Below are positions 17,631 to 64,000 of a DNA stretch of 64,000 bases, piece by piece. A program made the translations under genes and the position numbers. Numbering within the stretch: position 1 is the stretch's first letter; each line of letters starts with the position of its first letter. The stretch covers positions 405,561-469,560 of the forward strand of contig NZ_JAMCOJ010000002.1 in NCBI RefSeq assembly GCF_023476645.1, given 5' to 3'. This stretch comes from Cellulophaga sp. 20_2_10 (lineage in GTDB: Bacteria; Bacteroidota; Bacteroidia; Flavobacteriales; Flavobacteriaceae). Under the pieces are notes generated by a model. The model was not told where the DNA came from, made no database searches, and saw nothing but the letters and a program-made list of their open reading frames with translations.

Positions 17631-20600
17631 ATGGGTAAAAAAGTATATATAGTAATAGTACTATTTTTGTGTTTTTTATATGTGTCTAATGCACAGGAGA
17701 AAACACTGAATTACTCTCAGAAATTAACAATTTCAGAGGGCTTAGCTCATAACGGAGTAACTTCAATATTAGAAGACTCTAGAGGTTTTTTATGGCTTGG
17801 TACGTATGAGGGTTTAAATAAGTACAATGGGTACGAGTTTAAAGTTTATAAAAATACTTTAGAACAAAACATTTTAACCAGCAACCGTGTACGTACTATT
17901 AGTGAAGATTTAAAAGGTAATATTTGGATTGGTACAGACCAAGGTGTGTCTATTTACAATTATGAACAAGAGGCGTTTACTAAACTATACTCTAATAAAG
18001 AACTAGGTAAAGGTAATAATGGTCCCGTAGTTCGTAAAATACTAATAAACAAAAAACACAACTTAGTTTTTTGTGCCACAGAAGGCAACGGAGTTTTAAT
18101 TTTTAAGGACGATTATACTTTTGTTAATCAGTTTTTTTTACCAGGAGGCTCAGAGAATAAAGATATTTCATACCTAGATGCTGTAGCTTTAGATGAAGAT
18201 AACTACCTTTTTTCTACCTCTAGTGGTTTGGTGCTTTATAATATAGAAAAAGCAAAATTTAAAAAAGTTTTAAGCAAGCGTATCTTAACTAGTCCTGCTA
18301 TTTTAAAGGTAGATGATAAAACAATTATTGCCGCTTGTTCTACAGGAGTTTCTGTGGTTACGTTTAAAAAAGAAAACGATTCTTTTTCTGTGCAATTGAA
18401 AGAGAGAAAGCTACAGGATAATCAATTTAATAGTATTTCTAAAGACAAACTAGGTAATATATGGTTGGGAACTTATACAGATGGCGTAGTGCGTATAGAC
18501 AATGTATCAGACTTTATAAATAAAGGAAACCCTGTAACATCATCTTTTTATTTTGAAAAAGGTTTAATGCGTGTAAGTGCTATTGCGGCTGCAACTACTA
18601 CGGGTTGTTGGGTGTCTACTTTTAATGAAGGTATTTATAAGTTTGATGTAGATGAAAATCCCTTTAAAAAATACACAACAGATCTTAATTACAAGCACGG
18701 TCTGTTTTCTAATAATATCTCCTCTATTTCTGCTTTAGATACCAATAGAGTTTATGTAACTGCCAGTAGAGGCGGAGTAGGACTTTTTAACACTAAAACA
18801 AGTAGTTTTGAACCTTTGCCTTTTTCTTTGCCAGAAAAATATAAACTCAGAGTTGCTGGCTTTTTTGTAGACTCCAAAGAAAACTTTTGGATTCAGATTA
18901 CCAATTCTGGTCTTTTTAGAATTAAAAATGGAGAAACTGAATTAAAAAAAGTTTTAATTAATAATAAGGTTGACAAAGAATTTTTTAGACCAAGGAGAAT
19001 TACTGAAGATAAAGAAGGTAATATTTGGATGGTTTTTGCAGATGAAGTTTTTAAAATAAAATTAGATGCCAAAGGAGAAATTATTAAAATAGAATCTTTA
19101 TTTGATAATCCTTTTTTTAAAGATAATCAGCCCTCGTTATCTAGAGTTATGTATGTAGATCCTCTATATAATTATGTTTGGTTGGGGACAGATTTAGATG
19201 GTTTATACAGAATTAATAATTCTAGCAAAAATTTAAAAGATGCTAAAATAAAACAATTTCTAAATGATAAAAACGACAGTTTATCTCTGTCAAGTAACTT
19301 TGTAACATCTTTGGTGAGGTTGTCTAATGATGAGCTCTGGCTGGGTACAGAAGGCGGAGGTATTTGTTATGTAGAAAAAAGTAGTAGTACAAAACCAAAA
19401 TTTGTTCCGTATACAGAAAAGCAAGGTTTATCTAACAATGTGGTTAAAAGTCTTTTGGCAGATGATAAAAATAACCTGTGGATTTCTACCAATATAGGCT
19501 TAAATAAGTTTGATGTTAAAGAAAGACGTTTCAGAAATTTTAATAAATCTGATGGATTACCTTTTGAGGATTTTTGGTATGCTAGTACAAAACTGAAGAA
19601 CGGTAAATTTATATTTTCTGGATTAGACGGATTTTGTTTTTTTAATCCTAATGAAATATCTAACCAAGAAAGCTTGCCTAAATTACAGTTTGATGATTTT
19701 AAAATTTTTAATAAAAATATTTTTCCCGGTGATACCATAAATAATAGAGTTTTATTAGATAAGCGTATAGGAGATATTAATAAAATTCAATTAAAACACA
19801 ACGAGAATGTTTTTTCTTTAGAAGTAGCAAGTCTTCATTTCTCTAACACTAGAAATCACAATATAAAATATAGGTTGCTACCATTAAATAAACAGTGGAT
19901 AGAGGTTCCTTCTAATCAAAAAACAATTTATTACAATGGGTTGCAACCAGGAGAATATGAGCTAAGTGTTATGGCATCTAATTCTTTAAATGAATGGACG
20001 GCTCCCAAAAATCTTAAAATAGAAATTTTACCTCCTTTTTGGAAAACTACCTGGGCTTACCTTTTATACGCATTGCTTACTATTTGCTTTATATATGTAG
20101 TTGTACGTATTATTTTAAAAATACAATCTCTAAACCATAAGGTAGAGATAGAAAAATTAGAGAAGAGTAATGTTAATGAGGTTAATGAAGCTAAACTTCG
20201 GTTTTTTGCAAACATATCTCATGAAATAAAAACACCACTTACACTTATTTCTAGACCACTAGATATTTTAGCAGACCGATTTAAAAATAATGAAGATGCT
20301 AGTGAAAAACTTCATCTTGTGATGAGGCAATCAAAAAAAATTCAGCAATTAATAGAGCAAGTCTTAGATTTTAGAAGGGCAGATGCTAACCTATTAAAAA
20401 TGAATTATTCTAGATTTGGTTTTGATGGTTTTGTAAAAGACCTAATTATAGATTTTAACTTTTTGGCAGAAAACGATTCTAAAAAGTTAGTAGTAGAAAA
20501 AGGAGATTGTAGAATAACTGTAGCGGCAGATAAAGATAAATTAGAAAAGGTTTTTAATAACTTGCTTAGTAATGCATTTAAGTATACAAGTTCTGATGAT

Positions 20601-21767
20601 GTTATTACCATATCTTATAAAAGTGTAGATAAGGATTTAATTGTAACGGTAAAGGACACAGGTAGAGGTATAGACAGTGTAGATTTAGAGCATATTTTTG
20701 AGCGTTTTTATCAATCTCAAAAAGAAAACAATACCCACATAAGTGGTTCTGGTATAGGTTTGGCTTTTTCTAAGCGCTTGGTAGAAATGCACTATGGTTT
20801 TATTAAGGCAGAAAGTGAAGTTGGTAAAGGAACGGTAATTACCGTTAGGTTGCCAATTGTAAAAAGCAATTTGCCTACAGATAAAGATGTTCCAGAAGAT
20901 TTAGACCTTCCAAAAGAAAAAGAAGTAACCATAAATAATAAGTTAATACAAGAGAACTCGCCAGCTAAAATTATTGCTACAGGAGATTTTTCCGATTCAT
21001 TAATTTTTTATGCTGAAGACAATTTAGAAATGAGAAATTTTGTATCTAAATTATTGTCTAAGTTTTTTAAAGTAAAAACCTTTAGAAATGGTAAAGAATG
21101 TTTAGATGCTATGGAAGATGAGTGGCCAGACATTGTAATTAGTGATGTTCAAATGCCAGAGATGAATGGATTAGATTTATGTTTACGTATTAAATCTGAT
21201 TTAAAAACAAGTCATATTCCAGTAATATTACTAACCGCTTTAAGCAATATAGAAGATCATTTACAAGGGATAAGAGATGGTGCAGATGCATACATAAAAA
21301 AGCCATTTAATGTACAACGTTTAATTACAAATACAGAAGCATTGTTATCTACACGTAAACAACTTAGAGAGCGGTATCAAATAGGTATACCTTTAACTAA
21401 GGAGAATAATAAAAATAATAGAAACGATAATGCCTTTTTGGAAAAGTTATATAGTTTAATTGAAGAAAACTTAGACAATCAAGAGTTCGATTTAAATAGC
21501 CTTGCTAAAGAATTGTATTTAAACAGAACGCATTTTTATCAAAAAGTAAAGGTGCTTACCAACCAAACACCGTTTGAGCTTTTAAAAATTTACAGACTTA
21601 AAAAAGCAGCAGAGTTACTTAGTCAAAAAGGACTAGCGGTTAACGAGGTGTATATTATGACAGGATTTAAAAGTAGAACGCATTTTGCTAAAATTTTTAA
21701 AGAGAAGTATAATATTTCTCCAGGGAAGTATGCGGCAGAGATTAATAAAAAATACGAGTCAGAGTAA
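17631..21767 (+). CDS. Hybrid two-component system sensor-regulator HTCS-2
   Basis: This complete 1378-residue HTCS has a signal peptide (1-22, ending SNAQ), periplasmic Reg_prop propellers (about 28-700) and a Y_Y_Y domain (about 725-790). A transmembrane helix lies at about 803-828. The kinase H-box (SHEIKTPLTLI) is near 864, and the ATPase domain (DTGRGIDSVD, GSGIGLAFSKR) is at about 966-1076. The receiver spans about 1124-1236 with its Asp near 1170 (DIVISDVQMPEMNG). An AraC-type helix-turn-helix domain is at about 1270-1376. All signalling residues are present. It has the same length as HTCS-1, but the sequences are clearly different, so it is no recent copy. It stands at the head of the enzyme-rich plus-strand region and probably activates it in response to a galactan oligosaccharide. 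Confidence 0.95.
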   Translation: MGKKVYIVIVLFLCFLYVSNAQEKTLNYSQKLTISEGLAHNGVTSILEDSRGFLWLGTYEGLNKYNGYEFKVYKNTLEQNILTSNRVRTISEDLKGNIWIGTDQGVSIYNYEQEAFTKLYSNKELGKGNNGPVVRKILINKKHNLVFCATEGNGVLIFKDDYTFVNQFFLPGGSENKDISYLDAVALDEDNYLFSTSSGLVLYNIEKAKFKKVLSKRILTSPAILKVDDKTIIAACSTGVSVVTFKKENDSFSVQLKERKLQDNQFNSISKDKLGNIWLGTYTDGVVRIDNVSDFINKGNPVTSSFYFEKGLMRVSAIAAATTTGCWVSTFNEGIYKFDVDENPFKKYTTDLNYKHGLFSNNISSISALDTNRVYVTASRGGVGLFNTKTSSFEPLPFSLPEKYKLRVAGFFVDSKENFWIQITNSGLFRIKNGETELKKVLINNKVDKEFFRPRRITEDKEGNIWMVFADEVFKIKLDAKGEIIKIESLFDNPFFKDNQPSLSRVMYVDPLYNYVWLGTDLDGLYRINNSSKNLKDAKIKQFLNDKNDSLSLSSNFVTSLVRLSNDELWLGTEGGGICYVEKSSSTKPKFVPYTEKQGLSNNVVKSLLADDKNNLWISTNIGLNKFDVKERRFRNFNKSDGLPFEDFWYASTKLKNGKFIFSGLDGFCFFNPNEISNQESLPKLQFDDFKIFNKNIFPGDTINNRVLLDKRIGDINKIQLKHNENVFSLEVASLHFSNTRNHNIKYRLLPLNKQWIEVPSNQKTIYYNGLQPGEYELSVMASNSLNEWTAPKNLKIEILPPFWKTTWAYLLYALLTICFIYVVVRIILKIQSLNHKVEIEKLEKSNVNEVNEAKLRFFANISHEIKTPLTLISRPLDILADRFKNNEDASEKLHLVMRQSKKIQQLIEQVLDFRRADANLLKMNYSRFGFDGFVKDLIIDFNFLAENDSKKLVVEKGDCRITVAADKDKLEKVFNNLLSNAFKYTSSDDVITISYKSVDKDLIVTVKDTGRGIDSVDLEHIFERFYQSQKENNTHISGSGIGLAFSKRLVEMHYGFIKAESEVGKGTVITVRLPIVKSNLPTDKDVPEDLDLPKEKEVTINNKLIQENSPAKIIATGDFSDSLIFYAEDNLEMRNFVSKLLSKFFKVKTFRNGKECLDAMEDEWPDIVISDVQMPEMNGLDLCLRIKSDLKTSHIPVILLTALSNIEDHLQGIRDGADAYIKKPFNVQRLITNTEALLSTRKQLRERYQIGIPLTKENNKNNRNDNAFLEKLYSLIEENLDNQEFDLNSLAKELYLNRTHFYQKVKVLTNQTPFELLKIYRLKKAAELLSQKGLAVNEVYIMTGFKSRTHFAKIFKEKYNISPGKYAAEINKKYESE

Positions 21768-22002: not shown

Positions 22003-24822
22003 ATGAAAAAAGTAAAGCTGTTTTTAGTCTTTGTATTGTTTGCTGGTGTTTTTATAATGCAGGCTCAACTAGAAAAGATCGACTTTAAAAATAAAGGTAT
22101 TGCCAGTATAGAAACAGGGTACACAATTACAAAAGTTCGTACGGCATTAAAGAAAAACAAAACATATATAGTAGCTACTAGTTTTGAAGGTGCAGTCTTG
22201 GGTATTTCTTATGAAGGTAAAATTCTTTGGAAAAACGAATTGTCTGGCTTTATGAACCACGATATATGGTGCCAAGATATAAATGGAGATGGCGTAGATG
22301 AAATTTTAACAGCTAACGCAGATGGTACCATTTATTGTTTAAATAGTAAGGGAAAATTACTATGGAAGTTTAAAAAGAATTCTGCTCCTATGTATGCTGT
22401 TTGTGTTGTTAAAAAAGGAGGTAAGGCATACGTTGTAGCTGGTGGTTTTGATAAGAGTATATATTACATATCTTCAACCGGAGAAATGGTTAAAGAGCTT
22501 AAATCATCTACCTATTCTATAGAAAAACCTTGGGCGCAGTTAAAAAAAGACTTGCCAGAAAGTAATGTATCTACAGCTAATTTTATAAGACCAATACCTC
22601 AAAAAAATGGGGATGATGTTTTAGCTGTTTTAGGGACTAACAATCATATGAATGTACCAGGAACAATGTATTTGTTTAAGCCACTAGAAGATGTGCCATT
22701 TAGAAAAGATAAGTTAGCAATAAAAGGTAAAAGAGTACGGGTAATAGGACATTTTGCTGTAGATGATGCAGTTGTAGAAGGAGAACAAACGGTAATTTTG
22801 GGTACCTCTGCACACTCTAATGATAGTGCTCTTTTATTATACAACCCACAAACCGGGAAGGTCACATACCATAAAAATACTAAAATACCTTTTGGGTATG
22901 ATGTTACACATACAGTAACTATTAAAGACAATAATAAGACACTTTTTTTAACACGTGTTAGAAACCAAATTAGATTATTAGATCTTAATTTAAATGAAAA
23001 AAAGGTTGAGCGTATTCTAGGTAAATATGCCTTTAATGACCTATGGAAAGACCCAAAAACTGGCTATGTTATTTTGGCTAGTGCGCAAAGTGGTGGTAGT
23101 AGTATTCATGTAATTAACCCTAATAAAAAATCTTGGAAAAAGGATTTTGAAAAGTTGACGCCTCCTGGTAAAATAGCTTCAATAGTCGCAAATACAAAAG
23201 CAACAAGAGAAGATTTAAAAAAATATACTGCTAATAAGTCTAAAAGAACGCAATTGCCTGTTTATTTAATGACAGAGAAGGTGCCTTCTTCTTTAGAGTC
23301 TCTAAAAAATGAAATAACCAATAATTACCCAAGTCCGGTGTTTTTAAACTCTAAACACTTGCCAGAAGTAGAAAATTGGGATAGATCTATTTTAACAAAT
23401 GAGAAATTTAGAAAAAAGAGAGACCGTAGAAAAAAGTATGTGTTAAGTCAGCAACAGGTAGTAGATTTAATTACTAAAGAATATGCAAATGCTCCTGGTT
23501 TGGCGTATTGGGCCGGACACGGAAACGATCCTTATATGTTTAGTTTAGCTACAACTAAAAAGGTTTTAGATGCTGCTAATGGTAAAAAAACGGTTCTTAT
23601 TTATCCAGAGATGGAAGACCATTCTGAAGATTTAAATTTTGTGGTTAACAATTTATTGTATCCATTAGCAACCTACGCTAAAGATAAAAATGCTTCTATA
23701 TTTTTACGATCTAAAAATGTATTTTGGTTAGGATCTAATTATTTAGATGCTTGGTCTGGCTTAATGTCTGGTACTTATGCAGATGTTTTTGTACCTGCTA
23801 TGGAAGAAACTACAGATAAAACGATGGAGCTTAGTTTGGCTGGGAGAACTGGTATGTGGGCCAGTGGTGCTGTAAATTCTTGGGGTACGCGGGCTGTTCC
23901 AGATAATACTGCTTTTGATAGGTCTAGACAGTACGGCTCGCAACAACTACCAAATCATTTTTTAAGAATGCTAATTTTTCATACCGCAAATGGTGCACAA
24001 TACATAAATAATTTTGCTGTAGACCAAGAGTATTTAAGCGTGTATTGGGAGTTAATAGCTAAAGGTGTTTTGTTTGTTCCGAAACGAGAGGAAATAGTAA
24101 GTTTTTCTCCGGTACATTTAAGTATGAAGTCGCCAAATGAGCACTTTTTAGAAGATGGATCTAACGTAAAATGGACTATAAAATATAATGAAGAATTTGA
24201 AAAAAACAATCCTTTTGTTTTTAGTAGGATGAATGGTTCTTGGCCAGGTGCTCCCGTAACAGAATGGGATTTTTCTAAATATGCAGCAGGTGTAAAAGAG
24301 CGTAGATTAAATTTTTTAGCGCCCTATAATAATGGTTTAGTTTTAATTACTCCACCACAAGAAGGTATTTTTGCCACTAAAAATGTGGCTAGAGGTTCTT
24401 TAAAATCTCATTTGCATCCTTTATATAAAAATATAACTAAAGAATATATTACAGATGGGGAATCTTACTTTTCAAAAGATGGTAAGCAAACATATGCGGC
24501 AGATACATACTATAAAACAGTAGAAAAATCTATAAAAGAAAGTGCAAAACTTTTACCTATTACCGTAGACGGTGATGTTGCTTGGGTGGTTGCTCAAATT
24601 GCACCAAAAACACTTAGGTTAACGCTTATAGATAATGGGTATCTTAACCCAAGTAATAAACAGGCAACTATACACTTTAATACTGTTGCTCCTGTAAAAA
24701 TAACAGACGTTTTAAATAAAGAAATTTTTAAGGTTAAAGGTGAAGCTGCATCAACAACAATAAATGTTCCTTTGGGCTTATTTCGTTTTATAGATGTTGA
24801 GCTAGCCAAAGAGTTAAAATAA
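22003..24822 (+). CDS. Secreted beta-propeller enzyme, candidate GH150 lambda-carrageenase (copy 1)
   Basis: This 939-residue protein has a signal peptide (1-22, ending MQAQ). The N-terminal part (about 25-370) has PQQ/FG-GAP-like propeller repeats such as GAVLGISYEGKILWKNE, DINGDGVDEILTANADGTIY and LNSKGKLLWKFK. The large C-terminal part (about 400-939) has no common fold that I can name. It carries conserved patches shared with the 881-residue paralogue at 45976: WAGHGNDPYMF (near 505), VLIYPEMEDHSEDL, and LAGRTGMWASGAVN. From memory, characterised lambda-carrageenases (GH150) are about 940 residues with an N-terminal propeller and a novel catalytic C-terminus. Size and layout agree, and the sulfatase, GH110 and galactose neighbours support a lambda-carrageenan-like substrate. 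Family membership is inferred and needs a profile search. Confidence 0.6.
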   Translation: MKKVKLFLVFVLFAGVFIMQAQLEKIDFKNKGIASIETGYTITKVRTALKKNKTYIVATSFEGAVLGISYEGKILWKNELSGFMNHDIWCQDINGDGVDEILTANADGTIYCLNSKGKLLWKFKKNSAPMYAVCVVKKGGKAYVVAGGFDKSIYYISSTGEMVKELKSSTYSIEKPWAQLKKDLPESNVSTANFIRPIPQKNGDDVLAVLGTNNHMNVPGTMYLFKPLEDVPFRKDKLAIKGKRVRVIGHFAVDDAVVEGEQTVILGTSAHSNDSALLLYNPQTGKVTYHKNTKIPFGYDVTHTVTIKDNNKTLFLTRVRNQIRLLDLNLNEKKVERILGKYAFNDLWKDPKTGYVILASAQSGGSSIHVINPNKKSWKKDFEKLTPPGKIASIVANTKATREDLKKYTANKSKRTQLPVYLMTEKVPSSLESLKNEITNNYPSPVFLNSKHLPEVENWDRSILTNEKFRKKRDRRKKYVLSQQQVVDLITKEYANAPGLAYWAGHGNDPYMFSLATTKKVLDAANGKKTVLIYPEMEDHSEDLNFVVNNLLYPLATYAKDKNASIFLRSKNVFWLGSNYLDAWSGLMSGTYADVFVPAMEETTDKTMELSLAGRTGMWASGAVNSWGTRAVPDNTAFDRSRQYGSQQLPNHFLRMLIFHTANGAQYINNFAVDQEYLSVYWELIAKGVLFVPKREEIVSFSPVHLSMKSPNEHFLEDGSNVKWTIKYNEEFEKNNPFVFSRMNGSWPGAPVTEWDFSKYAAGVKERRLNFLAPYNNGLVLITPPQEGIFATKNVARGSLKSHLHPLYKNITKEYITDGESYFSKDGKQTYAADTYYKTVEKSIKESAKLLPITVDGDVAWVVAQIAPKTLRLTLIDNGYLNPSNKQATIHFNTVAPVKITDVLNKEIFKVKGEAASTTINVPLGLFRFIDVELAKELK

Positions 24823-25302: not shown

Positions 25303-26793
25303 ATGAAGTGTGTTTTAAAAAAGGTAACTTTTATTGCTTTTAGTGTTCTTGCATTAGCTAGTTGCGACACTAACAAAAACGATAAAAAAACAGAAAATAA
25401 AGTAGCAGATATAATTGCGAACCCAGCAGCACCAAATATAATTTTATTTGTAGCAGATGATCACGGTATAGATGCTTTAGGTGCTTATGGTAATACTGTA
25501 ATAAAAACCCCAAACTTAGATAAGTTGGCTACAGAAGGCACAAAATATACAAATGCCTATTGTACAAGTGCTAGTTGTGCGGCCAGTAGATCTGTAATAT
25601 TAACGGGTAAATTTGGACACGCAACTGGGTCTTATGGTCACGTGCATGACTATCATCATTTTAGTACGTATGACTCTATTACCTCATTACCAATTTTATT
25701 AAGTAAAGCCGGTTATGAAACTGCTCGTATAGGTAAGTATCATGTGGCTCCAGAAAAGGTATATCATTTTAATACTGTTCTAGAGGCAAATCCAAGAAAT
25801 ACAGTAGAAATGGCAGATAAATGCGCAAGTGTATTAAAATCTGATAAACCATTTTTTCTATATTTCTGTACAGATGATCCCCACCGTGGACAACCTTTTA
25901 CTCCAGAGGAATGGGATGTGCCAAACAGCTTTGGTAATAAAAAAGAAGGGTATAAAGATGTAGAAACGGTTACCTATAATCCAGATGATGTTTTAGTGCC
26001 ATCATTTTTACCAAATACCAAGCAAACAAGAGAAGAAATTGCCCAGTATTACCAAAGTATTTCTAGAATAGATCAGGGTTTTGGTAAGCTTATGGCAATG
26101 CTAAAGGCAGAAGGTAAAGATAAAAACACTGTTGTTATTTATATTTCAGATAACGGAATGGCATTTCCAGGAGCCAAAACTTCTGTGCATGAACCAGGAA
26201 TTAAATTACCGTGTATTATAAAAGATCCAACTGTTAAGGAAACAAATGTAACAAGCAGCGCAATGGTTTCTTGGGTAGATTTAACGCCAACTATTTTAGA
26301 TATGGCTAAAGTAAACTACAATAAAAATAAGTTTCACGGTACTTCTTTTAAATCTACAATTGGAAAAAATGAAGCAAAAGATTTTAATGAAATTTATGCG
26401 TCACATACGTTTCATGAAATTACAATGTATTACCCAATGCGTGTGGTTAGGAGTAACAATTACAAACTTATTTGGAATATAGCTTACCGCTTAGAGTATC
26501 CTTTTGCATCAGACCTTTGGGCATCTTCTACGTGGCAAAGTGTGTACAGAACGCACCAAGAGTATTTTGGGCCTAAAAAAGTAAAAGACTTTTTGTTTAG
26601 ACCAGAGTTTGAGCTTTATGATTTAGATAAAGATCCTAATGAGTTAAACAATTTAGCAGATAAAGAAGCTTATAAAAACACATTAGAAAGTTTAAAAACG
26701 AAGCTTAAAAATTTTCAGACAAAAACATCAGATCCTTGGAAAATTATGTGGAACCATGATGCAACGTTACAAGGAACAGGAGTAAACTTATAA
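25303..26793 (+). CDS. S1-family sulfatase, SGSH (sulfamidase)-like lipoprotein
   Basis: This 496-residue lipoprotein has a signal ending LALASC (Cys21). The formylglycine motif is CAASR with Cys92, followed by the helper region LTGKFGHATGSYGH. Calcium-binding residues lie in LFVADDHG, and DNGMAFPGAKTSVHEPG is the later metal and sulfate-binding segment. The course of the protein (VHDYHHFSTYDSITSLPILLSKAGYETARIGKYHV, then PFFLYFCTDDPHRG) resembles human heparan N-sulfatase and bacterial S1_8-type enzymes. In this setting an O-sulfated galactose residue is a more plausible target than N-sulfate. The motif needs an anaerobic-type maturase or FGE encoded elsewhere. It is 13 bp ahead of the GH110-like gene, and the two are surely co-expressed. 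Confidence 0.92.
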   Translation: MKCVLKKVTFIAFSVLALASCDTNKNDKKTENKVADIIANPAAPNIILFVADDHGIDALGAYGNTVIKTPNLDKLATEGTKYTNAYCTSASCAASRSVILTGKFGHATGSYGHVHDYHHFSTYDSITSLPILLSKAGYETARIGKYHVAPEKVYHFNTVLEANPRNTVEMADKCASVLKSDKPFFLYFCTDDPHRGQPFTPEEWDVPNSFGNKKEGYKDVETVTYNPDDVLVPSFLPNTKQTREEIAQYYQSISRIDQGFGKLMAMLKAEGKDKNTVVIYISDNGMAFPGAKTSVHEPGIKLPCIIKDPTVKETNVTSSAMVSWVDLTPTILDMAKVNYNKNKFHGTSFKSTIGKNEAKDFNEIYASHTFHEITMYYPMRVVRSNNYKLIWNIAYRLEYPFASDLWASSTWQSVYRTHQEYFGPKKVKDFLFRPEFELYDLDKDPNELNNLADKEAYKNTLESLKTKLKNFQTKTSDPWKIMWNHDATLQGTGVNL

Positions 26794-26806: not shown

Positions 26807-28621
26807 ATGAATAAAATATCAAAATTATTACTTGCATTTACTTTAGCTTTTAGCAGTGTTTATGCTACAGAAACTATACATATAAGTCATTCTAAAGAAG
26901 ACATGTCTTATACCGTTAGGCAAGCTATAGAAAATGCAAAGGATAAAGATATTGAGTTAGTTTTTGAAAAAGGAGACTATACGTTTTTAACGGATTATGC
27001 CGTTGGTAAATACCTATATGTTACGAATCACGGTAACGGATTTAAAAAAATAATTTTCAATTTTGAAGGTTTTAATTCTGTTGTTATAAATGGCAACAAT
27101 TCTAAGTTTATTTTTCACGGTCAGACTGCTCCTTTTGTTTTTAAAGGTTGCTCTAAAATAGACGTTAAAAATGTAACATTAGATTGGGATATTCCTTTTA
27201 GTTTTCAGGGCGATGTTGTTGCCGTTAATAAAAAGGAACATTGGTACGAGCTTAAACCTTATACAAAGGGTTTTTCTTGGAAATTGGTTAATGGTGCAAT
27301 TGAGTTTCCTGGGGTTACTAATTTTAATTTCTCTTCATTAGGGAGTTCTCTACCGCATAATAAAGAGACTAAAGCTGTAGATTATGGCGCTTTTGATACT
27401 TCTTTAGATCTTAATTTGGTTGAAGAAAAAGCAAACGGAGTGCTTCGTTTTTATCAATATAACTTAAATAAATTTCCAAGGGTAGGCAGTGTTCTTCAGT
27501 CTAAAGGAGATAAAAAAAATAACCGCTATGCACCAGCTTTTTTGGTTCGTAATTCTAAAGAAATTGTATTTAACAATGTTGTAATACACCACGCTTTAGG
27601 AATGGGTTTTTTGTTTGAGCGGTCAGAAAATATCAAAATAATAAATAGTGGTATTTATATAGAAGAAGGTTCAGATCGTGTAATGTCTATTGTTGCAGAT
27701 GCTACCCATTTTGCAAATTGTAAGGGAGATATACTTATTGAAAATTGCCGTTTTGAAGGGATGTATGATGATGGTACAAATGTACACGGAACATATGTAG
27801 AAGTACATAAAATTATAGATTCTAAAACTATACGTATAGCACTAAAGCACAACCAACAGTATGGGTTTGAGTTTGCAGGAGAAGGGGACGAAGTGTGGTT
27901 TATAAAAGCGCCAAGTCCTGCTAGAAAAGAAATAAATACAGTTGCTACAGTTAAAGTAATTAACGACCATTACACAGACCTTACGTTTAAAAATGATATA
28001 GCTAAAGGTCTTAAAATTGGGGATATTTTAGAAAACAAAACGTGGAATCCAAGTTTTACAATGCGTGGTAATACTATTCGCGACCATAGAGCAAGAAATA
28101 TAATTATAAAAACTCCTAAGAAAATAGTAATAGAGAATAATAACTTATCGTCTATGATGTCTTCTATTATGTTAAGAGGAGAAACGTTTTACTGGTTTGA
28201 GTCTGGTAATGTAGAGGACGTAATTATTAGGAATAATAATTTTGTAGATTGTGCTTATGGAGGAGCTTCCGAACACGCTATTTTAAAGGTGTCTCCAAGG
28301 TTAGGAAAAACATTTAGTGATACTGATTTATATGATAGGAATATCACTTTTGAGAATAACACCATAGAAACTTTTGGCAACCGTATTGTTTGGGCAGATA
28401 GGGTAGATGGGTTAACAATTAAAGGAAATACCATCAAGCAGACAACAACCTTTAAACCACAATTTCCAGATGCGTATTTGTTTGATTTGATAAACTGTAA
28501 GAATGTAGAAATTATAAGTAACACGTATAAAGGCGCAGTAACTAATGGTGTGCAAGCAGATAAAACATCCAAAAAAACACTGAAAGTAAAGAAAAATAAA
28601 GGCTTTAAGTATGAGGAATAA
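26807..28621 (+). CDS. GH110-like alpha-1,3-galactosidase (right-handed beta-helix)
   Basis: This 604-residue protein has a signal peptide (1-20). It reads as a parallel beta-helix with repeated turns of the type VIINNNFVDC and ITFENNTIETFGNRIVW. It matches the GH110 pattern: an N-terminal segment (VRQAIENAKDKDIELVFEKGDY), VTLDWDIPF, then IVADATHF and GMYDDGTNVHGTYVEV. The acidic residues Asp298, Asp321 and Asp322 have the spacing (24 between first and last) that I recall for the catalytic Asp set of a marine Pseudoalteromonas GH110 active on the galactose disaccharide of lambda-carrageenan. The enzyme would cut terminal alpha-1,3-galactose by inversion. It follows an SGSH-like sulfatase, and its last 11 bp overlap the next gene. 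Confidence 0.8.
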   Translation: MNKISKLLLAFTLAFSSVYATETIHISHSKEDMSYTVRQAIENAKDKDIELVFEKGDYTFLTDYAVGKYLYVTNHGNGFKKIIFNFEGFNSVVINGNNSKFIFHGQTAPFVFKGCSKIDVKNVTLDWDIPFSFQGDVVAVNKKEHWYELKPYTKGFSWKLVNGAIEFPGVTNFNFSSLGSSLPHNKETKAVDYGAFDTSLDLNLVEEKANGVLRFYQYNLNKFPRVGSVLQSKGDKKNNRYAPAFLVRNSKEIVFNNVVIHHALGMGFLFERSENIKIINSGIYIEEGSDRVMSIVADATHFANCKGDILIENCRFEGMYDDGTNVHGTYVEVHKIIDSKTIRIALKHNQQYGFEFAGEGDEVWFIKAPSPARKEINTVATVKVINDHYTDLTFKNDIAKGLKIGDILENKTWNPSFTMRGNTIRDHRARNIIIKTPKKIVIENNNLSSMMSSIMLRGETFYWFESGNVEDVIIRNNNFVDCAYGGASEHAILKVSPRLGKTFSDTDLYDRNITFENNTIETFGNRIVWADRVDGLTIKGNTIKQTTTFKPQFPDAYLFDLINCKNVEIISNTYKGAVTNGVQADKTSKKTLKVKKNKGFKYEE

Positions 28622-30893
28622 AAGTAGTTTACTGGTATTAGTTTTTTGCTTGTTTTCTTTTTTACTACAAGCTCAAAGTTTAGAAGAGGTTGCAAAAACT
28701 AAAATAGCAACTCTTAAAAATTTGCGTGATAAGGCAAATAAAAAAGGTATAGATGTTTTAAAAGAAGACACTACCATTAGAACAGCAGAACTATTTTTAA
28801 AATATGCTAATTGGGACGAGAACAATATACAGGCAAATGAAAAAGCATTTTCACTAGTTAAAATTTACGCGGATAAAGCCGAAGAAATGGCCGCAAATCT
28901 TCCTGATTTTGAACGCGAAGATGTAATAAAAATGCTAGATGAAGCTACAGCATATTTAAAGTTGCTTTTAGATAAAAAAGTCTTTAGAACACCAAGTCCA
29001 AAAGTAGACTGGTCTAAAGTAAAAGTAGGTAAAGACCAATTGCTTTTTAACAACAAACCTGTGTTTTTGGCAGACTACACTTGGAAACCAGATGCTGCGG
29101 AGTTAAATGAGTACCACGGAAATCAAGACGGTTTTTTTGTAACTCCTTCTTATGTTGTAAAAGAAGATGGCACCATAAATTTATCTAAGAAGAATGAGTT
29201 GGTTGCTAAACCAACTGGCAACTTAGGATTTATATTTTTAAATCATAAAACAACACCAGATTGGGCTATTAAAAAATATGGAAAAGATTTTGTTATGCGT
29301 ACCAATACGTATACTGCTTACGATATAGACAACCCAGGAGCAAAAGATGTACAGCAAAAATTACTAGCAGGTATTGTACCAACTATGGCTGGTAAAAACT
29401 ATACTGGTTTGGGGTATATGTTGTGTAACGAACCTCATTTTTTTACTCAAAAAACAGGTGATAAACTAGCTTGGGCTTCAGGGCCAGTTTCTGCTTATAC
29501 AATAGATAAGTTTAAAGTTTGGCTTAAACAAAAGCATACATCTATAGACGTATTAAACACCTTATGGCATACTAATTTTAAAGATTTTGATGCGGTACAT
29601 ATTCAGATACCAATAGATACAAGTTTAAGAGGTACGCCAATGTGGTACGATTGGTCTTTGTTTAATATGCACAGAGTAACAGAGTGGTATACTTTTTTAA
29701 AAGCAGAAATATTAAAGTATGATGCTAACGCTAAAGTACATTTAAAAATTATGCCTAATTTATGGACAGAGAATAAAAGAGTACACGGAATAGATTTAGA
29801 AGCGCTAACAGATTTAAGCGGAATTATAGGTAACGATTCTGGATCCGAAAACAACCATATGTGGGGTCCAAAAGAGGAGTGGGAAGACCATTATGCGCTT
29901 AATTGGAGAGAACTTTGTATGGGGTTTGATTTTATGAAATCTGTGAGTCCCAATAAACTAAATTTTAATTCCGAACTGCATTATTTATCAACTAACAAAT
30001 CAAGAGATTTATACCAAGATCCTAAATATGCTAGAGCCACTTTTTGGTTGGCACACACCTATGGGATGACGGCTAGTCAAATATGGTTTTGGCCAAGAAA
30101 AGCAGACGGAGCTATATCTGAAAAAGCAACAAACGATAAAAGTTACGCAGGTAGTAATAATCAGCAACCAAGAATAACAAACGAGGTTGCCACTACATTA
30201 ATAGATTTAAATGCGTACTCAGATTATATTATGGGGATGCAACGCCAAAGGAAACCATTGCGTATTTTTTATTCTAAATCTTCAGCAATAAATAAAGAGC
30301 GTCATATGGATGATGTCTTTGAGCTGTACGAGTCGCTTCATTTTAACGGTACATCGTTAGGCTTTGTAACTAAAGATATTCTTAAAAAACAAGATGCAGC
30401 TAACTGGGACGCAATTTTGGTAAGTAAAACTCAATTTATCACTTTAGAAGAACAAAAAGAATTGCAAAACTATTTAGATAATGGAGGTGTAATTATAACA
30501 GATAAGGTTAGTGTAAGCAAAGATGAATATGGGAACTCTATTACTAAACTAAAAAAGAGCAATGGCACATTAGTAGTTTGTAATTCTTTAGAAGATATTA
30601 ATGAGCATGCAATGAATTTATTAAAAAATAAAAATTTGTTGCCAAAAATTACAATTACAGAAACTAATAAATTAGGAGTTAAGGGCTGTGCTTGGAAGGT
30701 AATACAGAATAAAAAAGGAGCATATGTTTTGTCTGTAGTTAACCTAGGGAAAACGGATGCAACTTTAAATATCAAATTAAAAAATGTAGAAAAAGCTGTT
30801 TGTAAGGATTTATTAAATGGTGTAAAAGTAAGTTCTAACCCAACCCTAAAACCTTATGAGGTTTTTTATGTGGAGGTTTTAGAAGCAAAATAA
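28611..30893 (+). CDS. GH42-like beta-galactosidase
   Basis: This 760-residue protein has a signal peptide (1-21, ending LLQAQ). After a helical N-terminal region (about 25-125) comes a TIM barrel with clan GH-A residues: acid/base Glu274 in YMLCNEPHFF and nucleophile Glu455 in FNSELHYL. A GATase-like trimerisation segment follows (DAILVSKTQFITLEEQKELQNYL, about 600-640), then a small C-terminal beta domain. This is the GH42 layout. The related GH167 exo-beta-carrageenase family has the same fold and is an alternative call. It would release beta-linked galactose, or act on desulfated oligosaccharides, from the non-reducing end. Translation is coupled to the GH110-like gene by an 11-bp overlap, suggesting that the two act in turn on alternating alpha and beta linkages. 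Confidence 0.82.
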   Translation: MRNKSSLLVLVFCLFSFLLQAQSLEEVAKTKIATLKNLRDKANKKGIDVLKEDTTIRTAELFLKYANWDENNIQANEKAFSLVKIYADKAEEMAANLPDFEREDVIKMLDEATAYLKLLLDKKVFRTPSPKVDWSKVKVGKDQLLFNNKPVFLADYTWKPDAAELNEYHGNQDGFFVTPSYVVKEDGTINLSKKNELVAKPTGNLGFIFLNHKTTPDWAIKKYGKDFVMRTNTYTAYDIDNPGAKDVQQKLLAGIVPTMAGKNYTGLGYMLCNEPHFFTQKTGDKLAWASGPVSAYTIDKFKVWLKQKHTSIDVLNTLWHTNFKDFDAVHIQIPIDTSLRGTPMWYDWSLFNMHRVTEWYTFLKAEILKYDANAKVHLKIMPNLWTENKRVHGIDLEALTDLSGIIGNDSGSENNHMWGPKEEWEDHYALNWRELCMGFDFMKSVSPNKLNFNSELHYLSTNKSRDLYQDPKYARATFWLAHTYGMTASQIWFWPRKADGAISEKATNDKSYAGSNNQQPRITNEVATTLIDLNAYSDYIMGMQRQRKPLRIFYSKSSAINKERHMDDVFELYESLHFNGTSLGFVTKDILKKQDAANWDAILVSKTQFITLEEQKELQNYLDNGGVIITDKVSVSKDEYGNSITKLKKSNGTLVVCNSLEDINEHAMNLLKNKNLLPKITITETNKLGVKGCAWKVIQNKKGAYVLSVVNLGKTDATLNIKLKNVEKAVCKDLLNGVKVSSNPTLKPYEVFYVEVLEAK

Positions 30894-34840: not shown

Positions 34841-34884
34841 AAATCCTTGTTAGCGTAGTAAAATGCGATAACAAGGATTTTTTT
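34841..34884. terminator. Bidirectional terminator between the sulfatase operon and the CAT-like gene
   Basis: ATCCTTGTTA (34843-34852) pairs with TAACAAGGAT (34869-34878), and a run of T follows. The two flanking genes converge on it, and the hairpin has A- and T-tracts on both sides. Confidence 0.85.
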
Positions 34885-35518
34885 ATTCATTCAATAAAGC
34901 CTGAAACTTATCTACAAAAAGACCCACGTGGTAACCATCTACCAAACCGTGATGCGCGTGTATAGATACAGACATTGTTTTTGTATTGTCTACTGTAATT
35001 AGTTTTCCAAAAGATATTTTAGGGCAGCTATCTGGGTATTTGTAATTTCTTGCGTGAGACATACTGGTAAAGTTTAACCACGGTAAAGCAGAAAAATGTA
35101 TCACGTTAATTTTATCATCTTCACCAGGAAATAAACTGGTAGATTCTTGTACTCTTTTTATCACTTGTAAAGCATCATCCCTAAAAGCAATTTCATCTTC
35201 ATTATAATTTACAAAAGAAAAACCAAAAGTATGGTCTGGTCTGCTTATGGTTGGTGATGCGTTTATAGTATCAAACAAATACACCTGATCATCTATAATT
35301 CTATATTTAAAATTTTCAATTTGGTTTGCTGCTTCTAATGCACGGTATAAATAATAAAGAAAGAACGAAGTGTTGTTTTCTTTTGCTTTTTTGTATGCCT
35401 TAGTACAGTCAACGGTAACCGTGATTCCAAAAAAAGGTTCATCAAACTTAGAAAAAAAGTTATAATGATCTTTTCTATTCCATGTATCAATGGCAACCAA
35501 AGTTTTAGTCATAGTCAT
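34883..35518 (-). CDS. Chloramphenicol-acetyltransferase-like enzyme (CAT family)
   Basis: This 211-residue cytoplasmic protein has the fold markers of trimeric CAT enzymes: the N-terminal WNRKDHYNFFSKFDEPFFGITVTVDCT, SFFLYYLYRALEAANQIENFKYRI, the core FGFSFV, and the active-site motif HHGLVDGYHVGLF with His190 and Asp194. Length is normal. It reads against the PUL genes and shares a 172-bp divergent region with the FAD oxidoreductase. Many chromosomal relatives are not proven resistance genes, so acetylation of chloramphenicol should not be assumed. Its place here may be incidental. Confidence 0.85.
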   Translation of the reverse strand: MTMTKTLVAIDTWNRKDHYNFFSKFDEPFFGITVTVDCTKAYKKAKENNTSFFLYYLYRALEAANQIENFKYRIIDDQVYLFDTINASPTISRPDHTFGFSFVNYNEDEIAFRDDALQVIKRVQESTSLFPGEDDKINVIHFSALPWLNFTSMSHARNYKYPDSCPKISFGKLITVDNTKTMSVSIHAHHGLVDGYHVGLFVDKFQALLNE

Positions 35519-43515: not shown

Positions 43516-43534
43516 TAAAGTAAAAAAGTAAGCG

Positions 43535-60563: not shown

Positions 60564-62168
60564 ATGCTAAACAACTTATACACTAAAACTCTTTGTTTAT
60601 TAGTATGCTGCATTCTTACCGTTTCTTGTAACTCTAAAGAAGAGCAAAAAACTTATAAACCAATAAATGTAGAGGGTAAATATATTTTAACACCCAAAGC
60701 AAGTGCTAGTCCAACTATAAACGGACCAGCAATATTTGGGGTACGTCCAGGATCCCAATTTCTATATAGTATTCCTGTAACCGGAAAAAGACCAATGGAG
60801 TTTGCTGTAAAAGGATTGCCTGAAGGTTTAAAACTAAATACAGAAACGGGTTTAATAAGTGGTGTTATAAAAGACCTACAAAAAAGAGATTATGCCTTAA
60901 CATTTGTGGCTAAAAACAAAAAGGGAGAACAAAAAAAGAACTTTACCATTGTAGTGGGTGAAACCATTTGTTTAACTCCGCCAATGGGCTGGAATAGTTG
61001 GAACTGCTGGGGGCCAAGTGTTACGCAACAAAATGTAATTGCATCTGCACAAGCAATGGTGAACAAAGGCCTAGCAAATTATGGATGGAGCTATATAAAC
61101 GTAGATGATGGTTGGCAATCTCACAGGGGTGGCAAACACCACGGTATTTTAGCAGATTCTACTAAGTTTCCAGATATGCAGGCAATGGCAACTAAAATTC
61201 ATAATATGGGATTAAAGGTTGGTATTTATTCGTCACCTTGGGTTACTACATATGCTGGGTATATTGGTGGTTCTAGTGATACCGAAAACGGATATTGGGA
61301 CCAGTCTATGAACGATAAAAAACTTAAAAAGAAACGAACATTTACCAGAGTTGCTGCACATACTTTTGATGAAAACGATGTGGCACAATGGACAGATTGG
61401 GGTATAGATTATTTAAAGTACGATTGGAACCCTAACGAGCCAGAAAGTACCATACGTATGGCAAATGCTTTAAAAAATAGTAATAGAGATATTGTATATT
61501 CACTAAGTAACACAGCTCCTATAGAAAATGCTGCATTGTTTGGAGAAATTGTAAATTGTTTTAGAACAGATGGCGATTTAAAAGATAGATGGGGCGGAAA
61601 AGGAAGTCATAAAAGTATAAGAGACGAGTGGGTGGCGCATAGAAACTGGCTAGAAAAAGGTTTCGCAGGTGCTCCTGGTCATTTTCCAGATCCAGATATG
61701 TTAGTTATTGGCGAGGTAAATACAAGAAGTAAAAATCCACAACCATCTCGCTTAACTGCAGATGAGCAATACTCGCACGTATCACTTTGGTCGTTATGGG
61801 CAGCACCCTTATTAATTGGTTGCCCTATAGAAACTATGGATGAATTTACGGTTAACTTAGTAACCAATTCAGAGGTATTGGCAATTCATCAAGATGAAGT
61901 AGCAGTTCCAGGAAAAACAGTTTTTTATGATGATACTATGGAGATTGTAGTTAAAGAATTATCAGATGGTAGCAAAGCAATTGGTCTTTTCAACCTAAAC
62001 AATAAAGAACAAATTATTACTGTAAATTGGGAGTTGTTAGGTATTTCTGGCCCTCAGTCTTTTAGAGATGTTTGGAGACAAAAAGATATTGGTGGGTTTA
62101 ATAATGAGTTTTCTGCCAGTGTACCTAGGCACGGCGTAATATTTGTAAAAGTTACTAGTATTAAATAA
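60564..62168 (+). CDS. GH27 alpha-galactosidase lipoprotein
   Basis: This 534-residue lipoprotein has a signal ending LTVSC (Cys22). A putative Ig-like domain (about 45-130, FAVKGLPEGLKLNTETGLISG) precedes the catalytic TIM barrel. The barrel opens with PPMGWNSWNCWG (near 140) and contains YINVDDGWQ, nucleophile Asp287 in YLKYDWN and probable acid/base Asp338 in RTDGDLKDRW. The barrel is followed by GAPGHFPDPDMLVIG and a C-terminal beta domain. This is classic GH27 and should release terminal alpha-galactose. Along with the GH110-like enzyme it gives the locus two alpha-galactosidases of different clans. It is the first gene of a plus-strand run with two sulfatase genes, 12 bp before the next. 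Confidence 0.93.
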   Translation: MLNNLYTKTLCLLVCCILTVSCNSKEEQKTYKPINVEGKYILTPKASASPTINGPAIFGVRPGSQFLYSIPVTGKRPMEFAVKGLPEGLKLNTETGLISGVIKDLQKRDYALTFVAKNKKGEQKKNFTIVVGETICLTPPMGWNSWNCWGPSVTQQNVIASAQAMVNKGLANYGWSYINVDDGWQSHRGGKHHGILADSTKFPDMQAMATKIHNMGLKVGIYSSPWVTTYAGYIGGSSDTENGYWDQSMNDKKLKKKRTFTRVAAHTFDENDVAQWTDWGIDYLKYDWNPNEPESTIRMANALKNSNRDIVYSLSNTAPIENAALFGEIVNCFRTDGDLKDRWGGKGSHKSIRDEWVAHRNWLEKGFAGAPGHFPDPDMLVIGEVNTRSKNPQPSRLTADEQYSHVSLWSLWAAPLLIGCPIETMDEFTVNLVTNSEVLAIHQDEVAVPGKTVFYDDTMEIVVKELSDGSKAIGLFNLNNKEQIITVNWELLGISGPQSFRDVWRQKDIGGFNNEFSASVPRHGVIFVKVTSIK

Positions 62169-62180: not shown

Positions 62181-63587
62181 ATGAGATTTATAACATTTAT
62201 ATGCTGTTTTTTACCTTTAGTTTTATTTTCACAAACGAATAAACCCAACGTTGTTTTTTTGTTGGTAGATGATGTTGGTTGGGGAGATTTTAGCTGTTAT
62301 GGTGCTACATTTAATGAAACGCCAAATATTGATAAGTTAAGTAAAGACGGAATGCTTTTTGTAAATGGATATGCAGCTAGTACTGTCTGTTCTCCGAGTA
62401 GAGCTGCAATTTTAGCAGGTAAATATCCTGCAAAGTTAAAATTAACAGACTGGATAGATGGTCATAATTATGCCTATGCTAAACTAACAGTACCAGATTG
62501 GACATTAAAATTAGATCACAAAGAAAAATTACTACCAGAGGTATTAAAAGACCAGGGCTACACAACGGCATTTTTTGGTAAATGGCATTTAATGCCTATT
62601 AACAGAAAAGATTTTGACGACCATTACCCAACCAATCACGGTTTTGATATAAATGTAGGTGGTAGAGAATGGGGACAACCAAAAGGTAGAGGTAAGTATT
62701 TTTCTCCTTTTGATATGCCTAATTTAGACAATGGTAAAAAGAACGATTTTTTAACCGATAAGTTAACCAACGCAGCAATAACATATTTAGACACGGTATC
62801 TAAAAAAGATCCTTTTCTACTATATTTTTCTTATTATACAATACACGGTCCGGTGATGGCACCAAAGACTATAATAGAAAAATATAAAAAAAAATCTAAA
62901 ACTTTTGTAAACACTAAAAACGAATATGTTAGCGCCACAAGAGCAGCAATGGTAGAACGGTTAGATGTTAGTGTTGGTAAAATACTAGACAAATTAGATG
63001 CGCTAGGTATTGCAGATAATACCATTATTATTTTAACAGGAGATAATGGTGGTAATTATGACGAAACCACAAACGGATTAAGAGGGTACAAGGGCTTTGC
63101 TTATGAAGGCGGAGTAAGAGAACCTCTAATAGTAAAGTGGCCCAATAATATAGCACCAGGCAGTAGATCTGCTGTGCCAGTTATGGGAATAGATTTTTAT
63201 CCTACAATTTTAGATATGGTAGGTATTGCAGATTATAATGCTAAAGAAATAGATGGCGAGTCTTTTTTACCGGTACTTACGGGAGAAAAGAATAAATTAA
63301 AACGTAAAAGTTTATTTTGGCATTATCCCCACTATCATAGAACAAAACCATATGGAGCTATTTTAGATGACAACTGGAAATTATTAGAGTTTTTTGAAGA
63401 TGGTAATTTAGAATTGTACAACTTGACTACAGACCCTAATGAAACAAGGAACCTAGCAAACATTAATGTGGCTAAGACACGTAAAATGAAAAAGAAACTA
63501 GTAAAATGGAGAGCATCTGTTGGGGCACAAATGATGACAGAAAATCCAAATTATGATGCTACAAAAGCAGACCTAAGAGTTAAATAA
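62181..63587 (+). CDS. S1-family sulfatase, arylsulfatase-like (fourth)
   Basis: This 468-residue protein has a cleavable signal (1-18, ending LFSQ) and no lipobox. Calcium ligands lie in FLLVDDVGWGDFSCYGAT. The formylglycine motif is CSPSR with Cys70, followed by AAILAGKYPAKLKLTDW. FFGKWHLM and TGDNGGN supply the remaining pocket residues, with LELYNLTTDPNETRNLANI near the end. It looks most like the S1_16-type arylsulfatases common in marine Bacteroidota and resembles the third sulfatase (33259). It follows the GH27 gene by 12 bp and is 14 bp ahead of another sulfatase, so the three are one operon. Confidence 0.93.
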   Translation: MRFITFICCFLPLVLFSQTNKPNVVFLLVDDVGWGDFSCYGATFNETPNIDKLSKDGMLFVNGYAASTVCSPSRAAILAGKYPAKLKLTDWIDGHNYAYAKLTVPDWTLKLDHKEKLLPEVLKDQGYTTAFFGKWHLMPINRKDFDDHYPTNHGFDINVGGREWGQPKGRGKYFSPFDMPNLDNGKKNDFLTDKLTNAAITYLDTVSKKDPFLLYFSYYTIHGPVMAPKTIIEKYKKKSKTFVNTKNEYVSATRAAMVERLDVSVGKILDKLDALGIADNTIIILTGDNGGNYDETTNGLRGYKGFAYEGGVREPLIVKWPNNIAPGSRSAVPVMGIDFYPTILDMVGIADYNAKEIDGESFLPVLTGEKNKLKRKSLFWHYPHYHRTKPYGAILDDNWKLLEFFEDGNLELYNLTTDPNETRNLANINVAKTRKMKKKLVKWRASVGAQMMTENPNYDATKADLRVK

Positions 63588-63601: not shown

Positions 63602-64000
63602 ATGAGAAATAGAATTTATATCAGCCTAGTTTTTATACTGCTTATTTGTAGTGTAGTTACGGCTCAAAATAATAAAAAACAGCCTAACGTTTTATTTATC
63701 ATGGTAGATGATTTAAACGATTGGGTTGGTGCTTTTGGGGGCAACCAACAAGCTATAACACCAAATATAGATGCGTTGGCAGCAAAAGGTGTCGTTTTTA
63801 AAAATGCCTATTGTTCTGCGCCATTATGCAACCCATCTAGAACCAGTATTTTAACGGGTTACCAGCCAAGCACAACAGGTGTTTATGGTAATAACGAGGT
63901 TTTTAGAGAAATAGAGGGTTTTAAAAATACGGTTACTTTACCGCAGTATTTTGAAGAAAACGGGTATGAAACTGCAGCGGCAGGTAAAATTTTTCATAAT
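63602..64000 (+). CDS. S1-family sulfatase, iduronate-2-sulfatase-like (fifth), partial
   Basis: Only the first 133 codons are inside the window. A signal peptide (1-21, ending VVTAQ) is followed by the metal motif LFIMVDDLNDWVGAFGGN, the formylglycine motif CNPSR (Cys76) and TSILTGYQPSTTGVYGNN. This N-terminal pattern matches iduronate-2-sulfatase-like enzymes (S1_7 type). It is the fifth sulfatase in the window and belongs to the GH27-sulfatase operon. The locus therefore continues beyond the right edge. Confidence 0.9.
   Translation, partial: MRNRIYISLVFILLICSVVTAQNNKKQPNVLFIMVDDLNDWVGAFGGNQQAITPNIDALAAKGVVFKNAYCSAPLCNPSRTSILTGYQPSTTGVYGNNEVFREIEGFKNTVTLPQYFEENGYETAAAGKIFHN

Follow-up and report, generated by a model that had tools for sequence, protein, structure and literature searches.

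A highly probable lambda-carrageenan utilization locus in Cellulophaga, with a GH167 enzyme from a clade tied by position to lambda loci

A stretch of 64,000 nucleotides from Cellulophaga sp. 20_2_10 (hereafter the window) carries genes for two large propeller enzymes, alpha-galactosidases, sulfatases and SusC/SusD pairs, and from these we consider it highly probable that the region is a flavobacterial polysaccharide utilization locus (PUL) for lambda-carrageenan, a strongly sulfated galactan of red algae. Judged by its genes, it is very likely a Bacteroidota variant of the pathway described in 2025. The lambda assignment is well supported, because two GH150 types, a GH110A orthologue and an S1_8B-like sulfatase fit the published lambda cascade. 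Both large enzymes had the propeller, middle and C-terminal CGLA domains, all above the Pfam cut-off, and the proposal of the original prediction that they resemble GH150 withstood a test for membership in an unrelated family. The first (GH150A) was 46% identical to CglA of Pseudoalteromonas carrageenovora, and the second was of the GH150B type, with 51% identity to GH150B and 26% to GH150A of that species; Pseudoalteromonas distincta U2A has the same pairing of two GH150 types. The window GH110A was 54% identical to GH110A of P. carrageenovora, whose sulfatase and GH110 labels were deduced throughout from plasmid gene order and length against PMC12549532. The GH110-like and GH27 enzymes, five sulfatases, two SusC/SusD pairs and two hybrid two-component system (HTCS) regulators that had been predicted were borne out by a Pfam profile scan of 39 of the 44 window open reading frames (ORFs) of at least 120 amino acids; the five omitted overlap larger genes. 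A full galE, galK and galT set was also present, galE by family resemblance, but it lies upstream of position 17631, where the predicted locus had been made to start.

The same combination of genes recurred in other genomes. Among 100 genomes, the window's own included, GH150 was found in five (the window's own, G011, G015, G019 and G053), and in all four of the others, out of 99 relatives, GH150A, GH110A and GH167 lay close together. We also collected 74 GH150A loci from named genomes (from the best 80 of 92 matches), with some genomes represented several times, such as Flavicella marina with three loci. Within a stretch of mostly 10 kb on each side, the commonest partner of GH150A was a sulfatase with the active-site motif CAASR, found in 30 loci (29 at an identity of at least 60%), followed by GH110A (29), an HTCS (23), a SASA-type esterase (17) and GH167 (12). 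The 23 regulators were best matched by HTCS 2 of the window, 18 of them at 49% or more. GH127 was found in none of the 74 loci, and the same probe did detect GH127 beside kappa-type GH167. Within the window, the genes from 25303 to 34815 form a run of six with spacers of less than 25 bases and one overlapping pair; given this tight spacing and a gene order shared with G011 and G015, the run is not a product of chance. Five of its six genes were 77-93% identical to their G011/G015 counterparts. The sulfatase at 31786-33234, at 41% amid these neighbours, is perhaps a replaced gene.

Some observations weigh against lambda-carrageenan as the target. Culture supernatants of Cellulophaga species are reported to act on lambda-carrageenan among other substrates, but five of the Cellulophaga tested were most active on iota-carrageenan (PMC8533080), and two of the window sulfatases resemble S1_16, a family known from kappa-carrageenan. 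We regard it as improbable that the locus serves a different carrageenan of this group (xi, pi or theta) or a broader sulfated galactan. This alternative would account for enzymes beyond the published cascade, namely the SASA esterase, GH27, the CstA-type transporter and the S1_16-like sulfatases. Pyruvate carriers are found in the CstA superfamily, and pi-carrageenan bears pyruvyl groups. Cellulophaga supernatants were, in addition, active on theta-carrageenan (PMC8533080). On the other hand, the GH150 enzymes assayed so far in the accessible reports act on lambda-carrageenan (PMC12549532; PMC11202985), and the CstA gene is not specific to the lambda group, since it also lies near kappa-type GH167 in G140 and G225.

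The enzyme at 28611-30893 had been predicted to be a GH42-like beta-galactosidase, and this did not hold. Its GH42 match was confined to residues 297-410 (E=1.5e-6, above the cut-off), whereas GH167 fitted nearly end to end, the match to BovGH167 spanning residues 16-756 of 760. The catalytic glutamates E274 and E455 (acid/base and nucleophile), aligned to the P. carrageenovora enzyme, were invariant in all 24 sequences of two groups. The product that characterised GH167 enzymes release from desulfated kappa/iota oligosaccharides is beta-neocarrabiose (PMC6923384), and the lambda and kappa/iota cascades of Pseudoalteromonas distincta U2A have no enzyme in common (PMC12549532); a GH167 within a lambda operon was therefore unexpected. 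In 397 genomes from the family of the window organism, GH150 was present in 14 and GH167 in 18, with both in 10, GH150 alone in 4 and GH167 alone in 8 (Fisher p=1.7e-12, which is no true probability because the genomes are related).

We then labelled GH167 genes by their neighbourhood of about 10 kb, as lambda in the presence of GH150, GH110A or the CAASR sulfatase, and as kappa/iota in the presence of GH16, GH127 or dau genes. The resulting tree held 39 sequences, with three duplicates removed, a 29% partial match (G053:C5) excluded and the divergent GH167-like frames G036a_1 and G292b_6781 retained. A clade of 17 sequences, including the window enzyme, comprised 16 lambda-neighboured and one unlabelled member and none with kappa/iota neighbours, five of the 17 having been found through GH150, so that their label was preset. 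All six sampled sequences nearest to the P. carrageenovora enzyme were kappa/iota-neighboured. For both the lambda and the kappa label, each of 500 shuffles gave more label changes on the tree than the actual labels did. Within the 397-genome subset the clade held 11 lambda, 0 kappa and 1 unlabelled sequences against 4, 8 and 5 outside it (p=0.0013, uncorrected for kinship), and leaving out the two divergent frames gave 2 lambda against 8 kappa outside. Some labels depend on little: that of G036, a genome without a GH150 match, on the CAASR sulfatase alone, and several kappa labels on GH16 matches of 31-42%, above all those of G201 and G194; the GH150 of G301 is a weak split match. G140, taken to be Tamlana sp. 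2_MG-2023, had one GH167 of each kind, in two loci on two contigs, and identity between lambda-clade members and the seven kappa sequences compared did not exceed 42.6%. The clade is thus tied to lambda loci by position, which may be new for the family of the window organism: one GH167 clade in lambda loci, and relatives of the Pseudoalteromonas GH167 in kappa/iota loci. As a side observation, G036 combines a lambda-clade GH167, the CAASR sulfatase and GH27, and perhaps uses another endo-enzyme; one has been suspected for Zobellia galactanivorans (PMC6262041).

Whether GH167 acts on the beta-link of lambda-carrageenan appears evenly balanced. Several findings count against it. The window enzyme is closer to BovGH167 (782 bits), for which release of beta-neocarrabiose was assayed, than to the P. 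carrageenovora kappa enzyme (40% identical). The kappa/iota-neighboured sequences of G301 and G194 branch immediately next to the lambda clade; of the 48 positions that separate the two types, 35 and 29, respectively, have the lambda-type residue in them, so sequence alone shows no substrate change. Furthermore, GH167 occurred in only 12 of the 74 GH150A loci and was absent from 4 of the 14 GH150 genomes in the family sample, and GH2 occurred in 2 of the 12 GH167-bearing loci and in 20 of the 62 others, a small difference. We assign a substantial chance, although we lean slightly against it, to the view that lambda-carrageenan is broken down essentially as in Pseudoalteromonas while GH167 only clears anhydrogalactose-containing stretches (hybrid kappa/iota/beta), the neocarrabiose passing to GH127 and dau enzymes encoded on another contig, C23. 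The sole GH167 activity assayed, in the accessible part of PMC6923384, is on beta/kappa oligosaccharides; GH127 and dau-like genes are present on C23, the only GH167 match of the genome lies in the window, and two GH2 genes lie downstream. Against this, a LacZ-type GH2 is already encoded in the C23 cluster, which has no GH167, and in the neighbourhoods read every lambda-clade GH167 except that of G292a was accompanied by GH110A, GH150 or the CAASR sulfatase, and none had GH127 or GH16 nearby.

The lambda locus of C. omnivescoria (G011), which lacks GH2, also speaks against a role of GH167 restricted to hybrid stretches. It contains GH150A, the CAASR sulfatase, GH110A, GH167, SASA, S1_8B-like and S1_16-like sulfatases, the flavoprotein pair described below, CstA and GH150B, and neither a GH2 nor a close S1_15 relative was found in the 100 kb read. 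With GH167 present and GH2 absent from this locus, GH167 may cut the beta-1,4 link in C. omnivescoria. Seven GH2-domain matches on other contigs of this genome weigh on the opposite side and leave GH167 unproven as its sole beta-galactosidase.

The CAASR sulfatase is another component that sets the window locus apart. Its active site was conserved in 33 of 33 sequences, made up of 32 orthologues above 60% identity and the window copy, with at least three genes counted twice via different loci. In the PDB its best match was SGSH (N-sulphoglucosamine sulfohydrolase, 4mhx), with S1_8A third, and against the P. carrageenovora sulfatases it reached at best 28.8% over most of its length, apart from one 33% match over 30% of its length. 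By sequence comparison, it is without a clear counterpart in the published lambda cascade. To see whether the sulfatases group with porphyran or agar clades, three of the five in the window were compared with the PDB; their best matches were SGSH, GalNAc-6-sulfatase and S1_16, and an exo-L-galactose-6-sulfatase appeared lower in one list. Set against the five sulfatases of the U2A type (S1_8A, S1_8B, S1_8C, S1_15A and S1_15B), the locus including its downstream part had an S1_8B-like (40%), an S1_8A-like (36%) and one S1_15-like enzyme (47%, all to P. carrageenovora); no clear S1_8C orthologue or second S1_15 at comparable identity to the P. carrageenovora proteins was found in it. The genome as a whole gave 20 sulfatase-domain matches, of which 13 lie in the locus with its downstream part and 4 in the C23 cluster.

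Another recurring element is a flavin adenine dinucleotide (FAD)-dependent oxidoreductase whose gene overlaps that of a partner protein. The pair recurred in GH150-bearing loci of G011, G015, G019, G236, G292 and G437. G140 and G225 have it close to a kappa-type GH167, and C23 carries it too. Close relatives of the partner (E <1e-100) occurred in 14 of the 397 genomes, 12 of which have GH150 or GH167, compared with 10 of the remaining 383. Weaker matches in 27 further genomes, 3 of them with GH150 or GH167, show that the wider family extends beyond organisms that use carrageenan. A redox step common to lambda and kappa/iota catabolism is our guess for the role of the pair. Separately, the P. 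carrageenovora plasmid carries a multihaem c-type cytochrome both in its kappa/iota cluster (L028:16414-18549) and in a lambda-linked cluster (L030:15267-17402) that contains galactokinase and S1_8A/S1_15 sulfatases.

The original prediction had seen no genes for the release or catabolism of anhydrogalactose. For the window this was correct, as no GH16, GH127, GH129 or dau family was found by Pfam among the ORFs scanned (GH82 was not searched on its own), but it did not extend to the genome. Contig C23 carries GH127, genes resembling DauB (40%), DauA (45%), DauC (30%) and DauD (33%), a LacZ-type GH2, a weak GH129 match, a SusC/SusD pair and four sulfatases; GH16 was found once genome-wide, weakly. 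Kappa/iota oligosaccharides may thus also be used, from this separate locus. A molybdopterin-cofactor-binding protein is encoded within the C23 cluster (L224:17065-19245).

Features of the window and of the downstream part are listed in Table 1, with window-relative coordinates that continue past 64,000.

Table 1. Predicted genes of the locus and the matches on which their names are based.
Feature	Position	Strand	Evidence and remarks
First SusD and SusC-like pair	1771..6366	-	Pfam SusD_RagB, Plug, TonB barrel; kept in G011 and G015; link to lambda core putative
HTCS regulator 1	7076..11212	-	Pfam Reg_prop, Y_Y_Y, HisKA, HATPase_c, Response_reg, HTH_18; link to lambda core putative
galE-like UDP-glucose 4-epimerase	12435..13469	-	Pfam Epimerase / GDP_Man_Dehyd; name from family and neighbours
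galK and galT (Leloir pathway)	14582..15730 and 15679..16773	+	Pfam GalKase_gal_bdg; GalP_UDP_transf
HTCS regulator 2, adjoins GH150A	17631..21767	+	Pfam
GH150A lambda-carrageenase (predicted)	22003..24822	+	CGLA_M 6.3e-197, propeller 1.8e-126, CGLA_C 2.7e-34
S1 sulfatase, SGSH/S1_8-like, CAASR	25303..26793	+	PDB SGSH 4mhx 5.1e-85
GH110A-type alpha-1,3-galactosidase	26807..28621	+	Pfam GLAA-B domains; PDB 9beh (GH110A) 2.9e-208
GH167, lambda-locus clade	28611..30893	+	PDB 9whd 1.7e-268; BovGH167 6ptm 4.2e-234
SASA-type carbohydrate esterase	30900..31781	+	Pfam SASA 1.8e-33
S1_8B-like sulfatase	31786..33234	+	40% over 99% to P. carrageenovora protein taken as S1_8B; CSPTR
S1 sulfatase, GalNAc-6S / S1_16-like	33259..34815	+	PDB 7stt 3.1e-73, 9fo1 1.4e-70; CSPSR
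Chloramphenicol-acetyltransferase-family gene	34883..35518	-	Pfam; opposite strand within core; kept in G011 and G015
FAD-dependent oxidoreductase, twin-arginine start	35691..37619	+	Pfam FAD_oxidored 9.4e-89; kept in G011, G015, G019, C23
Partner of FAD oxidoreductase, beta domain and helical repeats	37610..38761	+	no Pfam match; AlphaFold pLDDT 77
CstA-superfamily transporter	38771..40189	+	Pfam CstA 1.9e-56; NCBIfam CstA 1.4e-24, below cut-off
Second SusC/SusD pair	40417..45340	+	Pfam; present in G015, no counterpart in G011 stretch read
GH150B-type lambda-carrageenase (predicted)	45976..48621	+	three CGLA domains, weaker; CGLA_M 1.7e-59
GH27 alpha-galactosidase	60564..62168	+	Pfam Melibiase_2 4.2e-31; 92% in G015
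S1_16-like sulfatase	62181..63587	+	PDB 9fo1 (kappa-carrageenan sulfatase S1_16) 5.4e-120
S1 sulfatase, cut by window end, continues to 65017	63602..64000	+	Pfam; CNPSR
GH2 genes	68116 and 86494		26% and 23% to P. carrageenovora GH2
S1_8A-like sulfatase	84919		36% to P. carrageenovora
Second GH110	89217		34% to GH110A, 30% to GH110B of P. carrageenovora
S1_15-like sulfatase	96659		47% to P. carrageenovora
KDG-kinase-like gene and KDPG aldolase	100968-102704

The locus extends to about 102,700, nearly 40 kb beyond the window end, and this part contains more sulfatases, two GH2 genes, a second GH110, a third SusC/SusD pair and a LacI regulator. We hold it only just short of evenly balanced that two loci are present, a lambda core at 17631-48621 and a separate sulfated-galactan locus from 60564, with a genomic island between them, an arrangement compatible with the lambda reading of the core. 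Of the nine ORFs at 48865-60272, only a TonB-like gene was matched in the stretches read from four relatives, and both flanks were kept in G015. The gene at 51729-54317 matched the candidate phage-defence family PDC-S06 (E=1.4e-153), G011 has the first half only, and the second half has its own SusC/SusD pair, GH110, GH2 genes and LacI regulator. The S1_8A-like and S1_15-like genes of the second half argue for a single locus, as they would complete the published cascade. Two further observations concern this downstream part. At 73341-77502 we found a GMC oxidoreductase, two isomerase-like TIM barrels and a Gluconate_2-dh3 subunit. All but one of these four have a twin-arginine start, and the set looks like a periplasmic sugar-oxidation module within a sulfatase-rich locus. 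The 486-amino-acid protein at 66646-68106 has weak melibiase similarity below the cut-off; it is conserved in G019, G036 and G437 (66-69%), where it lies close to lambda-type genes, and possibly represents an undescribed alpha-galactosidase group.

From the gene content, families, conservation and partition of clades between loci we infer every substrate and the order of steps in the following scheme. The HTCS adjoining GH150A would sense oligosaccharides. By analogy with characterised homologues, GH150A and GH150B would cut beta-1,4 links to give lambda-neocarrageenan oligosaccharides, fully and less sulfated, and these would be imported via SusC/SusD. In the periplasm, the S1_8B-like sulfatase would remove the 2-sulfate of the terminal alpha-galactose, GH110A would cut the alpha-1,3 link, and further sulfates would be stripped by the CAASR and S1_16-like sulfatases. 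GH167 probably cleaves the beta-1,4 link, either to provide a disaccharide for GH110A or after GH110A, as GH2 does in Pseudoalteromonas. Galactose would enter the Leloir pathway via galK, galT and galE, and the half beyond the window would contribute its two GH2 enzymes, the second GH110, the S1_8A-like and S1_15-like enzymes and more sulfatases. Tentatively, and with more doubt than trust in the proposal as a whole, we suggest that Bacteroidota have evolved a lambda pathway of their own, in which GH2 is replaced by a specialised GH167 clade that was recruited from exo-carrageenases acting on anhydrogalactose-containing carrageenans and that, together with the CAASR sulfatase, supplies GH110 with galactobiose-type disaccharides, and to which the periplasmic FAD oxidoreductase and its partner would add the shared redox step. 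Such a step is not described for carrageenan pathways in the accessible parts of the open-licence PMC literature.

GH167, the CAASR sulfatase and the flavoprotein pair are the parts of most interest. Should GH167 take part in lambda degradation in Bacteroidota, different enzymes would carry out the same chemistry in two phyla, and a single family would have been put to use on more than one type of carrageenan. A small natural version of the system (two GH150, GH110, GH167 and three sulfatases) exists in C. omnivescoria, and the recurring flavoprotein pair hints at an additional step by which an abundant sulfated sugar of the sea is broken down.

While lambda-carrageenan as the best-fitting substrate was upheld by these results, the idea that the locus could be a new pathway was overstated, given that the Pseudoalteromonas pathway was solved in 2025 (PMC12549532), a similar lambda-type PUL with two GH150, GH110 and GH2 was reported in 2018 for Flavobacteriaceae bacterium S85 (PMC6262041), and flavobacterial GH150 enzymes have been assayed. 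The latter, OUC-CglA of Maribacter vaceletii and Cgl150A_Wa of Wenyingzhuangia aestuarii (PMC11202985), were characterised as single enzymes, with no pathway described in the accessible text, and both species were among our GH150 matches; among the references of that paper is a thesis from 2008 that deals with a lambda-carrageenase from Cellulophaga sp. QY201. Some kappa/iota carrageenan PULs (CarPULs) likewise contain GH167, S1 sulfatases, the FAD oxidoreductase pair and CstA, but the window ORFs scanned lack their GH16, GH127 and dau genes. Co-occurrence of GH150 and GH167 in one PUL has already been published for a gut Bacteroides CarPUL with GH16_17, GH82, GH150 and GH167 (PMC13168452), which, unlike the window, is mixed with kappa/iota enzymes, and for which the accessible text states no lambda role of GH167. 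The window GH167 shares near end-to-end homology and both glutamates with the exo-beta-carrageenases of P. fuliginea PS47 and B. ovatus (PMC6923384), but belongs to the clade found in lambda loci. Compared with the lambda-CarPULs of P. distincta U2A and P. carrageenovora 9T (PMC12549532; PMC6262041), the window locus is alike in GH150A, GH150B, GH110A and the S1_8A-, S1_8B- and S1_15-like sulfatases, and galactokinase lies near sulfatases in P. carrageenovora as well. It differs from them in having SusC/SusD, HTCS, GH167, the SASA esterase, the CAASR sulfatase, the FAD oxidoreductase pair and CstA, in GH2 and second GH110 enzymes that are only distantly similar, and in the lack of a clear S1_8C orthologue. 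A further parallel in gene arrangement comes from Ochrovirga pacifica S85, which we take to be our genome G236: GH150A, GH110A, the CAASR sulfatase, the FAD oxidoreductase pair and SASA lie together there as in the window, and GH167, unmentioned in the accessible part of PMC6262041, is present beside GH110A.

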